A stretch of 64,000 nucleotides of DNA from an uncultured SAR86 cluster bacterium. Lineage in GTDB: Bacteria > Pseudomonadota > Gammaproteobacteria > Magnimaribacterales > D2472. The position numbers and the translations under genes were made by a program. The stretch spans positions 1-64,000 of the forward strand of contig CACBGD010000001.1 in the NCBI GenBank assembly GCA_902538705.1, read 5' to 3'. The notes under the pieces were generated by a model that was not told the origin of the DNA, made no database searches, and saw nothing but the letters and a program-made list of their open reading frames with translations. Position 1 is the first letter of the stretch, and each line of letters opens with the position of its first letter. Shown here one piece after another: positions 33,639 to 39,129 of this stretch.

Positions 33639-34487
33639 TTAAAATGAGCCACCTCTAAGTCTTGTGTTTGGAGGGCCGAAAATAATTGAAAAAGCTTCTC
33701 TAATTGTTCTAGCTTTTTTTACATCTTTGAAAATTGCGCTCCAACCCATGAAAGTAATCTTTACTGGGTTGAATGTATTCACATTGTTAACTAATCCGTA
33801 TTTAACAGTTGCATGCTCTGGTTCAAATGTCCCAAACATTTTGTCCCAAATAATAAATAAATTTCCATAATTCTTATCTATATATTCTTTATTTGCTCCA
33901 TGATGCACCCTGTGATGAGAAGGTGTGTTAAAAATCATCTCTAGTGGCCCCAGTTTGTCAACAATTTGTGTATGGCCAACAACTCCCCACAAGGTACTTA
34001 TAATTCCAGCAATTACTACAATAGTTGGATCAAGTCCTAATATTGGGAGAACCAAAAAGAAAGGTATCTTAGACAAAGGTGCGAACCAAGCTTGTCTTAG
34101 TGAAACCGCAAAATTCATCTCCTCACTTGAATGATGACTCATATGTATTGCCCATAAAAATCTCACTCTATGAGAGAGTCTGTGGTAAATATAAAAAACT
34201 AAATCAATTAAAATAAAGGTTAAAATCCACATAGCCCAAACAGGTATTAAGCTAGCAAGATCAATGAGCCTAAATTGGTATAAAAAAATATGAATGCTAA
34301 ATGATATTCCTTTAGCAGCAAATCCGATAAGAATATTCCCAACAAGTAAGCCAGCCGTGCATAAAGTATCATTTAATCTATAAAAAGATTTGTTGCTCAT
34401 AGAAGAAAATAAAGCCTCTAAAGCAATCATTCCGTATATTATTGGAAGACCTATCGCATAAACTTCTGGTACAGTCAGGCTAGTCAT
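33639..34487 (-). CDS. Sterol desaturase / fatty acid hydroxylase family
   Basis: Histidine boxes HRLSHR, HMSHHS, HHRVHHG. Confidence 0.92.
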   Translation of the reverse strand: MTSLTVPEVYAIGLPIIYGMIALEALFSSMSNKSFYRLNDTLCTAGLLVGNILIGFAAKGISFSIHIFLYQFRLIDLASLIPVWAMWILTFILIDLVFYIYHRLSHRVRFLWAIHMSHHSSEEMNFAVSLRQAWFAPLSKIPFFLVLPILGLDPTIVVIAGIISTLWGVVGHTQIVDKLGPLEMIFNTPSHHRVHHGANKEYIDKNYGNLFIIWDKMFGTFEPEHATVKYGLVNNVNTFNPVKITFMGWSAIFKDVKKARTIREAFSIIFGPPNTRLRGGSF

Positions 34488-35053
34488 TTCGATTTCAATA
34501 ATTCAATTTTTTCAATTAGGGAATCAAGCTCGGGCTTGTTTGATCTTATCTCCTCTAAAGTAAGACCTTGAATTTCGTGCGGGAATACCAGCCACTGATC
34601 TGTCTTATGAATATAATAATCAGGAGCTCTATCAGTTTTATTATTCTTTGGCTTAAAGTAAGGAGTTGCAACTTGTATTTCTGGCATATTTTCTTTGCAA
34701 GCTTCCTTGATTTCTTCTATTACCTTGCTGATTGACATACCTGAATCATAAACATCATCTACTATCAAAAGAGAATCGTTTAACTTCAGCTGCTTAACCA
34801 CGTAGTTGAGTCCATAAACTTGAACTCTGTCTTTAGTTGAGTTGATACCAGAATAGTAGGAAGTTCTTATTGCAATGTGGTCAGATGGTATACCCAGGTA
34901 ATCAAGAAATTCTTGAACAGCAATTCCAACTGGGGCTCCGCCACGCCATATACCTATAATGAAGTCTGGTTTAAAGCCTTTCTCATAAATCTTCCAAGCT
35001 AAATTATAAGAGTCTTTTAAGAGCTGGTCTGCCTGGATGTAATGCTTTTCCAT
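34484..35053 (-). CDS. Purine-type phosphoribosyltransferase
   Basis: IIGIWRGGAPVGIAV and LLIVDDVYDSGMS PRPP-binding motif. Confidence 0.85.
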   Translation of the reverse strand: MEKHYIQADQLLKDSYNLAWKIYEKGFKPDFIIGIWRGGAPVGIAVQEFLDYLGIPSDHIAIRTSYYSGINSTKDRVQVYGLNYVVKQLKLNDSLLIVDDVYDSGMSISKVIEEIKEACKENMPEIQVATPYFKPKNNKTDRAPDYYIHKTDQWLVFPHEIQGLTLEEIRSNKPELDSLIEKIELLKSK

Positions 35054-35108: not shown

Positions 35109-37466
35109 CTAGAAGCTATATCTTATTCTTGTCATAGCTTGTCTTGGCGGAATCAGCTCAAGGCCAGTTGCTGCTACTCCAAAAACGTCCGTCATGCTTG
35201 AATTAACTCCTGCCTCATCAGTGATGTTTAAGAGCATAAAATCTACAGCTAGGCTGTCACTAAAGCCAACCGAAGTGATTATGTTTCCAATTTGATAGGC
35301 TCTAACATAATCAACAATAGGATTATTAGAAACTCTTTGTTGGAAAGAACCTCTTTTAATAAATTGAGCTATTGTTGTAAGTGAGTTACCTGAAGACAAG
35401 TTGGTCTCATATTTAAATGAAATATCTGCGGTAATTTCAGGCGTCTTAGCCAGCTGATTACCTCTAACATTTTCTCTTAAACCATATCTGATATCTTCCG
35501 CACCAATGAAATAGGCGTAAGCATCAACATTATCTAAAACTTCATAATCTGAAGTTACTTCTGAGTTTAAAAAGGCAAGGTTCATGTCAACACTAAAAGA
35601 ATCCGATAAAAATCCTGTGAATTCAATTTCTAAACCTGACATTTCAGCTTCGGGTATATTTGCTACTCCTCCTCTATACGGATCTGGGTCAGTAGCTTGG
35701 AACTGGAGATTTTCGTATGTGTATGAAAAAGCTGCCAAGTTAGCTCGTGCTCTGCCGTCTGCAAAAGTGGACTTTAGGCCTACTTCAAAAGAGTCAACTG
35801 TTTCGCTTTCGAATACTTGAAAAACCATAGGATCAACTAAAACAGCCCCCTGATCTGTTCTTCCTGCTGCATCAAGCTCTTCTTGAGTAGAAAAACCGTA
35901 TGTTAAGTTTGTTCCGCCTGGTTTAAATCCTCTTGCTAGTGCAAGGTATAACATTGTGTCATCAGATAAATCAAATTCACCTACCACTCTAGAAGTAATC
36001 TCATCAGTAGTTCCTTCCTGTTCAAAGATATCTACATTTAAAAAGTTAGTTACGTCTGTAGTAAAGGTATCCTCGGAATAACGAAGTCCTGAAACAATTC
36101 TAAATGTTTCACTTACATATAGTGTTGTTTGTCCATAGATTGAAAAAGATTCTCTTGTTGGAAAAGCATCTGTAAAAAAGTCAACATCTGCTCCCGGACC
36201 AAAGATACCAAACAATCCAGGAAATCCATAGTCATGCTCATAGCAATAATTAGGATCTGCAAAAGATTCACTACAAAGATACTTTATCCTTCCATCAAAG
36301 TCATCATCTCTGTAACCTCTGATAACATTTTCAATTTCGTGATCAATATAAAATAACCCTACCGTCCAATCAAGTCTATCTTCAATTGGTTCATTAGAAA
36401 TTAAGTTGATCTCAAGAGTTGTTGTATCAACAACTGAAGTTTCGGGTCTAAATTCTGCTCTTTGATAAGTGGCGCCAGCTCCTAAATCAGGAATTGAAAG
36501 AACTGGATCAAGATAATTATGCCTGTCGTTGTCCCTTGTAACCGATATATCATCTTCTTGAATACTAGCTATCGCTTTTAGATTTGCAAAACCAAAGTCA
36601 GATTCATAAATTGCAGCAATTACCATTGAAGATAGCTCATGCTGGGAAACGGTATCTTGTGAAAGCTTTCTCATTCCAGGCGATTGATCATCAATACCTC
36701 TTATAGCTGCCCCATTTCTATCTTCTTTAAAATACTGACCAAATACCCTTAGGCTAGATGTTTCACTAAGATCAAACATCCAATCAGTTCTAACTGACTT
36801 ATTATTGGCATCATCTAGGTCTTGACCTGTAACCAGATTTTTTGAAAACCCATCTCTTGTTGTTGACGATATTGATAACCTTGTTGCAATAGTGTCGCTG
36901 ATAACAAAATTATTTGAGGTTGTAAACTTCTGAAGGCCGTAATCTCCAAAGGTTACATTTAATTTACCAGAGCCTCCTTCAGTTGAAGGTGCTTTAGTAA
37001 TAACATTAATTGCCCCCCCAGTTGAGTTTTGGCCGAATAATGTGCCTTGTGGACCACGTAAGACCTCAATCCTTTCGACATCAAGGAAGTCAGTGCTTAG
37101 TGCAAATGGTGATGCTATAAAAACTCCATCCATATGGAATGCAACAGATGGTGCAGCTATTGCATTTTGGTTGGTCTCGTTGCCTACTCCTCTTATTGAA
37201 ATAACTGTTTTATAACCTTCATTTTTAGCAACTGTTACACCAGGCACGATTGCACTTAAATCAACAAAGCTTGTTATATTTTTCTCTTCAATATCTTCCT
37301 CAGTAAGCGCAGTAACAGCTTGAGAAATATCCTGAAGGCTTTCAGAACGTTTTTCAGCAGTCACAACTACCTCTTCAACCTCTTGTGCTAAAAGAGATAA
37401 GCCAAAAGAGCCTACAAAAGAAGCTAAAATAATTCTTTTAAATAAAATATTAAAATAAATTTTCAT
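35109..37466 (-). CDS. TonB-dependent outer-membrane receptor
   Basis: TonB box-like VEEVVVTAEKR, plug LRGPQGTLFGQNSTGGAINVITKAP, C-terminal aromatic RIRYSF. Confidence 0.95.
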   Translation of the reverse strand: MKIYFNILFKRIILASFVGSFGLSLLAQEVEEVVVTAEKRSESLQDISQAVTALTEEDIEEKNITSFVDLSAIVPGVTVAKNEGYKTVISIRGVGNETNQNAIAAPSVAFHMDGVFIASPFALSTDFLDVERIEVLRGPQGTLFGQNSTGGAINVITKAPSTEGGSGKLNVTFGDYGLQKFTTSNNFVISDTIATRLSISSTTRDGFSKNLVTGQDLDDANNKSVRTDWMFDLSETSSLRVFGQYFKEDRNGAAIRGIDDQSPGMRKLSQDTVSQHELSSMVIAAIYESDFGFANLKAIASIQEDDISVTRDNDRHNYLDPVLSIPDLGAGATYQRAEFRPETSVVDTTTLEINLISNEPIEDRLDWTVGLFYIDHEIENVIRGYRDDDFDGRIKYLCSESFADPNYCYEHDYGFPGLFGIFGPGADVDFFTDAFPTRESFSIYGQTTLYVSETFRIVSGLRYSEDTFTTDVTNFLNVDIFEQEGTTDEITSRVVGEFDLSDDTMLYLALARGFKPGGTNLTYGFSTQEELDAAGRTDQGAVLVDPMVFQVFESETVDSFEVGLKSTFADGRARANLAAFSYTYENLQFQATDPDPYRGGVANIPEAEMSGLEIEFTGFLSDSFSVDMNLAFLNSEVTSDYEVLDNVDAYAYFIGAEDIRYGLRENVRGNQLAKTPEITADISFKYETNLSSGNSLTTIAQFIKRGSFQQRVSNNPIVDYVRAYQIGNIITSVGFSDSLAVDFMLLNITDEAGVNSSMTDVFGVAATGLELIPPRQAMTRIRYSF

Positions 37467-37548
37467 AAATTTTCCCCGTATAAATTTTTATTTTTGCAAT
37501 CTTTGTCTGCAGGACAAATTGAAGTTAAACTCGGTCGGTTTAACGGTT

Positions 37549-37594
37549 GCGTTCCTTCGGTTTTCACCTACTTCCGTCTCCTAAGAGATGAACG
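37549..37594 (-). ncRNA. Glutamine-riboswitch-like (glnA-type) aptamer, copy 2 (start-proximal)
   Basis: Minus strand CGUUCAUCUCUUAGGAGACGGAAGUAGGUGAAAACCGAAGGAACGC: CGUUC/GAACG closing stem, two hairpins, conserved GACGGAAGUAGG and CCGAAGGAACGC. Confidence 0.85.
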
Positions 37595-37600
37595 ATTAGC

Positions 37601-37646
37601 GCGTTCCTTCAGCTTTCGCTTACTTCCGACTCCGAAGAGTTGAACG
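37601..37646 (-). ncRNA. Glutamine-riboswitch-like (glnA-type) aptamer, copy 1 (promoter-proximal)
   Basis: Minus strand CGUUCAACUCUUCGGAGUCGGAAGUAAGCGAAAGCUGAAGGAACGC; same three-way junction, compensatory changes relative to copy 2. Confidence 0.82.
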
Positions 37647-37724
37647 ATTTTAACTCACTATTTACTCAATCACTTGAGCTCCTTTTTAACCATGGAGATG
37701 GTGCAAATTAAATCACAATATAAA

Positions 37725-37753
37725 ATAATACGTTTTAAAATTTAACTTAACAA
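37725..37753 (-). promoter_or_regulatory. Putative sigma70 promoter for riboswitch/TonB receptor transcript
   Basis: TTGTTA - 17 nt - TATTAT on minus strand, giving a leader of about 250 nt. Confidence 0.55.
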
Positions 37754-37839: not shown

Positions 37840-39129
37840 ATGTTAGAAAAAATCTTTAAACTTGAGTCTAACAACACTTCCTTTAGCAAAGAGGTTTTGG
37901 CTGGATTTACCACCTTTGTGACCATGGCATATATTATCTTTGTGAATCCGCAGATGATGGCAGTAAGTGGAATGGATTTAGGTGCAAGCTTTGTTGGTAC
38001 CTGTCTGGCAGCCTCACTTGCTTGCATAGTAATGGGACTATATTCCAATTGGCCTGTCAGTTTAGCCCCTGGAATGGGATTAAATGCCTTTTTTACTTAT
38101 ACAGTTGTTGGTGAGATGGGATATTCTTGGGAAATAGCTCTTGGGGCAGTTTTTTTAGCAGGTGTTTTATTCTTTATAATGAGCGTAACGCGACTCAGAC
38201 GATGGATGTTAGATAGTATCCCTCTTAATCTTAGGATTGCCATGGGAGCAGGTGTTGGACTCTTTATTGGTTTTATAGGATTAAAAAATGGCGGATTAAT
38301 TGTTGCGAACGATGCTACCTTTCTAAGTCTTGGTGATTTTACAAACCCTGAAACGCTATTGGCAGCATTGGGTTTTTTAATAATCAGCTCCTTGTCGGTA
38401 AGAAATGTTCCTGGGGCTATTCTCGTTGGTGTAATTCTAGTGACAATATCTTCAATTTTTTTTGGGCTAATCGAATTCCGTGGATTAGTTTCTATGCCTC
38501 CAAGTATTGCCCCTACTTTCATGAAAATGGACATAGTCGGTGCATTAGATGTTGCAATGCTGAGCGTGGTTATGTCATTTCTTTTTGTAAATCTTTTTGA
38601 TACTGCCGGTACCCTTTTAGGCGTGGCAAACAGAGCAAAAATCACTGATGAATACGGTAATGCAAAGAACTTTGATAAAGCTCTGAAAGCTGACAGCGGT
38701 TCCAGCATATTTGGTACTTTCTTTGGTTGCTCTCCTGTCACAAGTTATGTCGAGAGTTCAGCCGGAGTTGAGGCTGGAGGTAGAACGGGCTTAACTACGG
38801 TTGTGGTTGGTCTTCTATTTTTAGTAGCTATCTTTTTTTCACCCTTGGCAGCAATAGTTCCAGCCTATGCAACCGCTGGTGCTTTAATTTATGTATCTAT
38901 CTTAATGATGAGCGGTATGGAAAAACTTAACTGGTCTGATTTAACTGAACTCTTGCCAGCATTAGTAATAATAGTAATGATCCCACTTACTTTTTCTATT
39001 GCTAATGGTATTGCTCTCGGATTCTTAGCATATGTTGTCTTAAAAATTTCTATTGGTGAAATAAAAAATATCTCCTCAGGAGCTTGGTTCTTAACTGCTA
39101 TTTTTGTTTCAAAGTTTCTCTTCTTATAA
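37840..39129 (+). CDS. NCS2-family purine (guanine/hypoxanthine-type) permease
   Basis: EVLAGFTTFVTMAYIIFVNPQMM, APGMGLNAFFTYTVV, DTAGTLLGVANRA. Confidence 0.93.
   Translation: MLEKIFKLESNNTSFSKEVLAGFTTFVTMAYIIFVNPQMMAVSGMDLGASFVGTCLAASLACIVMGLYSNWPVSLAPGMGLNAFFTYTVVGEMGYSWEIALGAVFLAGVLFFIMSVTRLRRWMLDSIPLNLRIAMGAGVGLFIGFIGLKNGGLIVANDATFLSLGDFTNPETLLAALGFLIISSLSVRNVPGAILVGVILVTISSIFFGLIEFRGLVSMPPSIAPTFMKMDIVGALDVAMLSVVMSFLFVNLFDTAGTLLGVANRAKITDEYGNAKNFDKALKADSGSSIFGTFFGCSPVTSYVESSAGVEAGGRTGLTTVVVGLLFLVAIFFSPLAAIVPAYATAGALIYVSILMMSGMEKLNWSDLTELLPALVIIVMIPLTFSIANGIALGFLAYVVLKISIGEIKNISSGAWFLTAIFVSKFLFL

Follow-up and report, generated by a model that had tools for sequence, protein, structure and literature searches.

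Why should the gene for an outer-membrane TonB-dependent receptor in a SAR86 bacterium be preceded by two copies of an RNA that resembles a glutamine sensor? SAR86 bacteria are among the most abundant heterotrophs of the surface ocean, and they are streamlined, the genomes searched here measuring about 0.7–1.8 Mb. The window, meaning the whole stretch of 64,000 nucleotides that was analysed, comes from a SAR86 genome of 1.0 Mb in 35 contigs. The original prediction, made from the letters of this DNA, had described two minus-strand repeats (cores 37646-37601 and 37594-37549) with CGUUC/GAACG stems, CGGAAGUA linkers, UUCG or UUAG loops, GAAA loops and GAAGGAACGC ends, and all of these elements were confirmed by reading the sequence. 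The compensatory changes that it listed between the two copies (ACUC/GAGU versus UCUC/GAGA, and AGC/GCU versus GGU/ACC) were likewise correct.

The repeats had been likened to both the glnA and the Downstream-peptide glutamine aptamers, and only the first half of this resemblance stood. When the whole 64-kb window was compared with Rfam 15 by cmscan, aptamer 1 (37598–37648, minus strand) matched the glnA motif RF01739 with 66.2 bits (E 1.8e-12) and aptamer 2 (37546–37596, minus strand) with 68.6 bits (E 3.9e-13), for a gathering score of 35 bits. The Downstream-peptide motif (Glutamine-II, RF01704) has the CGUUCA 5' half and the CGGAAG linker in common with them, but the window reached only 13.7 bits against a cut-off of 33, and membership was rejected. 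Apart from the two aptamers, no Rfam 15 match above cut-off was found in the window. Both copies contain the P1, P2 and P3 stems with the conserved core CGGAAGUA and GAAGGAACG, and their core letters equal the RF01739 consensus without exception. In a set of 82 distinct aptamers, taken from SAR86 and from a second gammaproteobacterial lineage, pairing was seen in 98.8% of cells for P2 and 99.6% for P3, whereas 500 shuffles of the columns gave at most 85% and 81%, respectively. The P2/P3 fold is therefore conserved well beyond chance. By every sequence test, the two repeats are full type I glutamine riboswitch aptamers of the RF01739 family, and this membership implies that they would bind L-glutamine. 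They lie in the sense orientation between the predicted promoter and the ATG of the receptor gene, with aptamer 2 ending 80 nt upstream of that ATG, and what they precede is a presumed operon for purine uptake rather than one of the classical nitrogen genes.

The gene downstream of the aptamers (35109–37466, minus strand) was correctly recognised as a TonB-dependent receptor: its 785-aa product contains Plug (PF07715) and beta-barrel (PF00593) domains above cut-off. Its named relatives, at 70% identity, are records labelled "uncultured SAR86 cluster bacterium". The next gene of the presumed operon (34484–35053, minus strand) encodes a 189-aa purine-type phosphoribosyltransferase, whose best relatives of solved structure are purine phosphoribosyltransferases. 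Its end is overlapped by a gene for a 282-aa fatty-acid hydroxylase/sterol desaturase family protein (33639–34487, minus strand), which occupies the same position in the genus; in the other genera checked, no such gene was detected next to that of the phosphoribosyltransferase. On the other side, a divergent gene (37840–39129, plus strand), without a riboswitch of its own, encodes a 429-aa NCS2 permease, closest among solved structures to the adenine/guanine permeases AZG1 and AZG2.

Conserved linkage of the receptor with purine transport and salvage genes was found. Wherever the flanks of a SAR86 locus were examined, receptor and phosphoribosyltransferase were neighbours, and the divergent permease accompanied them in ten of ten loci from other genera with an assembled leader and in the two named SAR86 records. 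Beyond SAR86, a metagenome-assembled genome of the Cellvibrionaceae has a 50%-identical receptor near xdhA, a xanthine permease, a RutR-like regulator and an AZG-like permease, and in Aestuariicella hydrocarbonica a receptor homologue lies near a xanthine permease, two phosphoribosyltransferases, a PF06516 protein and an adenosine deaminase-like protein. Because purine genes surround the receptor in SAR86, Cellvibrionaceae and Aestuariicella, purines are its likely cargo, going by gene neighbourhood in several lineages only. Since purF is present in the source genome and a PF02738 (molybdenum hydroxylase) domain was undetected in ten of ten genus genomes, most of them incomplete, breakdown of imported purines for nitrogen via xanthine dehydrogenase is disfavoured, and salvage is likelier. 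De novo synthesis of IMP spends two glutamines, at the PurF and PurL steps, so that a glutamine signal would be a sensible gate for purine uptake.

The receptor array has counterparts elsewhere in the genus. RF01739 aptamers were present in all ten genus genomes, and the source genome carries a second tandem array, 5' of glnA. The arrays of the genus precede three kinds of target: glnA; a gene for a Gcw_chp/TorF-type outer-membrane protein followed by AmtB, with GlnK between them in one genome; and the TonB-dependent receptor. At the TorF-AmtB locus the array is triple in three genomes and double in one. In front of the orthologous receptor it is double in all eight genomes with an assembled leader, a result of the survey of relatives that the original prediction had proposed; left out of this count are one assembly without the receptor locus (G002) and one in which a contig end falls inside the receptor gene (G006). 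The receptor array thus appears, from sequence, to belong to a genus-wide glutamine regulon together with glnA and AmtB. More broadly, RF01739 was found in 95 of 203 genomes of the SAR86 order and in four of 369 genomes of a class-wide sample, three of these four being SAR86. Array targets were again glnA and TorF-AmtB in family f4; in family f2 and in one genome of another order (G486) the target is a 1323-aa ORF, glutamate synthase judging from its N-terminus, these targets (f4, f2 and G486) being named by eye without a family scan. The receptor was seen as a target in this genus only.

Inspection of the receptor leader revealed elements through which such control might act. A sigma-70-like candidate promoter, TTGTTA-17-TATTAT (37725–37753, minus strand), has a predicted start near 37718, upstream of both aptamers and of a pseudoknot-like module described below; four promoter-like sites were found for 1.9 expected, which is weak evidence for this candidate. 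A sigma-54-like remnant, TTGTGATTTAATTTGCAC (37701–37718, minus strand), is kept in 8/8 genus copies with a degenerate −24 element, and its predicted start near 37691 is also upstream of both aptamers and would truncate the pseudoknot-like module. Downstream, alignment and RNAalifold delimited a 3' platform (37502–37556, minus strand) common to the glnA, AmtB and receptor leaders of the genus. In this platform the AGGA of aptamer 2 (37556-37553) can pair with a conserved UCCU (37514-37511) across a hairpin, GUUAAAC/GUUUAAC (37544-37538/37530-37524). The UCCU sits in a stretch, UCCUGCAG, that RNAalifold places in all three leader types, and the ribosome-binding site GGGGA (37473–37477, minus strand), 6 nt upstream of the ATG at 37466, is a possible alternative partner for it. 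Receptor leaders also have a competing pairing, UUUGUC/GACAAA (37518-37513/37507-37502). An intrinsic terminator was rejected, no terminator-like site being found in the receptor leader, and translational control is therefore likelier than termination.

Our main reading, to which we give a probability of about 0.68, is that the tandem aptamers exert OFF control on the purine receptor at high glutamine. The receptor mRNA would start with two type I (glnA) aptamers, each binding L-glutamine, and the pair would respond more steeply than a single aptamer. Tandem arrangements are common in this class, with 157 doublets and 4 triplets in a 2022 survey (PMC9481103). When glutamine is plentiful the aptamers would close and less receptor and phosphoribosyltransferase would be made; when it falls, the receptor would be produced and purines drawn from seawater, each salvaged purine sparing the two glutamines that PurF and PurL would consume per IMP made de novo. 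At the molecular level, the AGGA of a free aptamer may keep the UCCU off the ribosome-binding site, and glutamine, by locking the AGGA, may release the UCCU to block that site. This AGGA/UCCU scheme is a proposal only, since a folding comparison of free and aptamer-closed leaders gave a slight shift in ribosome-binding-site access for glnA and no clear change for the receptor, where the unpaired probability was mostly unchanged. The OFF direction is inferred from the partner genes, as the sister arrays precede glnA and TorF-(GlnK)-AmtB, which are needed at low glutamine.

The aptamers are accompanied, on their 5' side, by a module that resembles an H-type pseudoknot (37646–37702, minus strand), with the pattern CCAU-(A)CUCC-AUGG-UUAAAA-GGAG followed by a hairpin. 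It consists of S1, ACCAU/AUGGU (37702-37698/37693-37689), S2, CUCC/GGAG (37697-37694/37682-37679), an A-rich linker and the hairpin CUCAA/UUGAG (37678-37674/37669-37665), and it had zero Rfam matches up to E 10. Within the genus it was found in seven of eight receptor leaders, in the glnA leaders and in one AmtB leader, and family f4 has two tandem copies 5' of TorF-AmtB (L176, L180, L185, L195 and others). The crossing helices S1 and S2 were paired in 98.5% of cells among 22 distinct copies, compared with 38.9–45.5% when the partners were slid by one column. Two-sided changes affect one pair per helix (A-U to C-G in five sequences, C-G to U-A in two), and with seven of nine module pairs lacking such a change they lend modest support. 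A covariance model of the module matched in 28 of 202 genomes of the order, at glutamine arrays except for one marginal match; co-location was judged from RF01739 positions, a few of which were not individually confirmed. No convincing solo copy was found elsewhere in the order, the marginal one having E 0.002, in a search that scored only 28 candidates per genome and so may have missed some. In L184 and L196, the S2 pairing is kept and extended and S1 is lost. It is possible, though we consider it doubtful, that the module is a second sensor or regulatory domain, forming with the aptamers a composite RNA regulator that, in the leaders of glnA, AmtB and the purine receptor, is read jointly with glutamine. 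The module is a defined candidate for a new, undescribed RNA domain in two SAR86 lineages.

Two other interpretations of leader elements were rejected. A leader peptide at ATGGTTAAAAAGGAG was discarded because reading frames vary among genomes. An NtrC site at the inverted repeat TGCACCA...TGGT was rejected by eye, as its spacing and right half deviate from the NtrC consensus; it is also disfavoured by the second module copy of family f4, which has no TGCA.

Comparison with relatives suggested how the receptor acquired its array. In eleven SAR86 relatives without the riboswitch (L206-L215 and L116), the gap between permease and receptor is about 112–230 bp, and in all eleven a strict sigma-54 promoter, GGCAY-N5-TTGCW, precedes the receptor; the expectation from shuffling is 0.0005 such regions among 11. 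In the window the gap measures 373 bp. The strict promoter was rejected for this genus, where the motif is absent and the site of the same spacing reads TTGTGATTTRATTTGCAC in 8/8 genomes. The two aptamers of the receptor leader have the same sequence as aptamers 1 and 2 of the AmtB triple array, and over its full length this leader can be aligned with that of glnA at about 76%; from these two findings we infer copying within the genome. Aptamer 1 is letter-identical in seven of eight receptor leaders, as is aptamer 2 in seven of eight; the receptor proteins, compared over their C-terminal part, are about 77–83% identical among the genus. The AmtB/glnA leaders are the probable source of the cassette, which would have replaced or joined an older sigma-54 control. 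If this is right, the receptor gene, having lost a recognisable sigma-54 promoter and gained a copied riboswitch cassette, would clearly exemplify a change from protein-based to RNA-based regulation.

The sign of the response and the nature of the cargo are the points at which other readings deserve weight. The tandem aptamers might sense glutamine and turn the receptor ON when it is high, as cyanobacterial gifB does. The two glutamine switches studied experimentally in cells, Synechocystis gifB and the Prochlorococcus type 2 element, are both ON with glutamine (PMC6316151), which counts against OFF control, and SAR86 itself has apparent ON-type targets, DUF4278-like and other small proteins encoded directly 3' of an aptamer. 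These small-protein loci of other genera, however, have a short platform of another kind, their start codon lying only about 17–30 nt past the aptamer, whereas the receptor leader has the 3' platform of glnA and AmtB, genes for which ON control would be counterproductive. We regard activation by glutamine as an unlikely alternative, though a serious one, and retain OFF control. The cargo, for its part, might be another nitrogen-rich nutrient or a metal complex, with the purine neighbours there by coincidence. Among TBDT family models that name a substrate, none reached its cut-off for the receptor, a sequence search of solved structures gave only generic plug matches, with siderophore and colicin receptors as best relatives, and in this genus the locus continues with a fatty-acid hydroxylase gene. 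Yet the link with phosphoribosyltransferase and NCS2 permease holds across the sampled SAR86 genera, and 50%-identity homologues in two other gammaproteobacterial lineages sit among other purine genes, so that a non-purine cargo seems rather improbable to us.

Two further explanations would sever the array from glutamine control of the receptor altogether, and we hold both to be very remote. The identity with the AmtB aptamers marks the cassette as a copy, and the array could then be a by-product of leader duplication that no longer controls the receptor; but the invariant core positions are kept in 8/8 species-level genomes despite diverged flanks, and in all eight the array lies in the correct orientation between predicted promoter and start codon. 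Ligand-changed variants are known in other riboswitch classes, and this precedent is all that speaks for a change of ligand here, there being nothing direct in its favour; the core letters fit the RF01739 consensus fully and recur unchanged in the leaders of glnA and AmtB in this genus.

Cobalamin and thiamine riboswitches precede genes of TonB-dependent receptors (BtuB and others), and their ligand is the transported vitamin. The present array is like them in that a metabolite riboswitch would control an outer-membrane receptor gene; in contrast, glutamine would here signal nitrogen status and the cargo would be another compound. With the gifB (IF17) switch it shares an RF01739-type aptamer reporting nitrogen status, but gifB is an ON switch for a glutamine-synthetase inhibitor, whereas the control proposed here would turn a nutrient receptor OFF. 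To the glnA motif it corresponds in aptamer sequence and structure, tandem layout, orientation and 5' leader position, and, in line with Weinberg et al. 2010 (PMC2864571), glnA and an ammonium transporter are the genes behind its partner arrays in the genus. It differs in its target, the outer-membrane TonB receptor of a purine-uptake locus, in its extra upstream pseudoknot-like module, and in its host, SAR86 being Gammaproteobacteria and a 2018 review having limited the class to cyanobacteria (PMC6316151). Published targets of glutamine riboswitches are PII, glutamine synthetase, glutamate synthase and ammonium transporters (PMC2864571, PMC6316151), and glutamine riboswitches of marine phages are also known (PMC9004378). 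The original prediction knew of no description of the association with a TonB receptor, and none was found in the openly accessible literature searched; the sole co-occurrence of the class and a TonB receptor met there is in a cyanobacterial transcriptome study (PMC10830646). Apparently, then, a known riboswitch class has an undescribed target and leader architecture.

If true, the proposed control would mean that SAR86 reads its nitrogen status largely through a small glutamine-RNA regulon. Uptake of dissolved purines would be tied to internal glutamine, ready-made purines being taken when nitrogen is short, and the sensed metabolite would be linked to the use of dissolved organic nitrogen in a way that is testable in metatranscriptomes.

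Glutamine aptamers of SAR86 were also observed next to several other kinds of gene. In other genera, very basic micro-protein ORFs (43–54 aa, pI about 10, many ending in FFPYYL) directly follow aptamers at L072, L073, L091, L093, L094, L107-L112, L114, L178 and L200-L202. The four tested had no Pfam match; in size, charge and control they resemble the cyanobacterial glutamine-synthetase inactivating factors. DUF4278-like small proteins are encoded 3' of aptamers at L083 and L100, where a scan identified the domain, and at L092 and L096, where the sequence is similar; cyanobacterial IF17 carries DUF4278 in its N-terminal part. A single aptamer directly precedes the gene of a 71–72 aa acidic DUF4177-like protein at L074-L082, L085-L087, L089 and L090, and in several of these loci a 428-aa amino-acid permease ORF comes next. 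Finally, at L095, L097-L099, L101-L106 and L113, an aptamer lies about 30–50 nt 5' of a two-gene operon of unassigned function, encoding circularly permuted ATP-grasp and alpha-E proteins, an arrangement kept in genus g8 and in G052.
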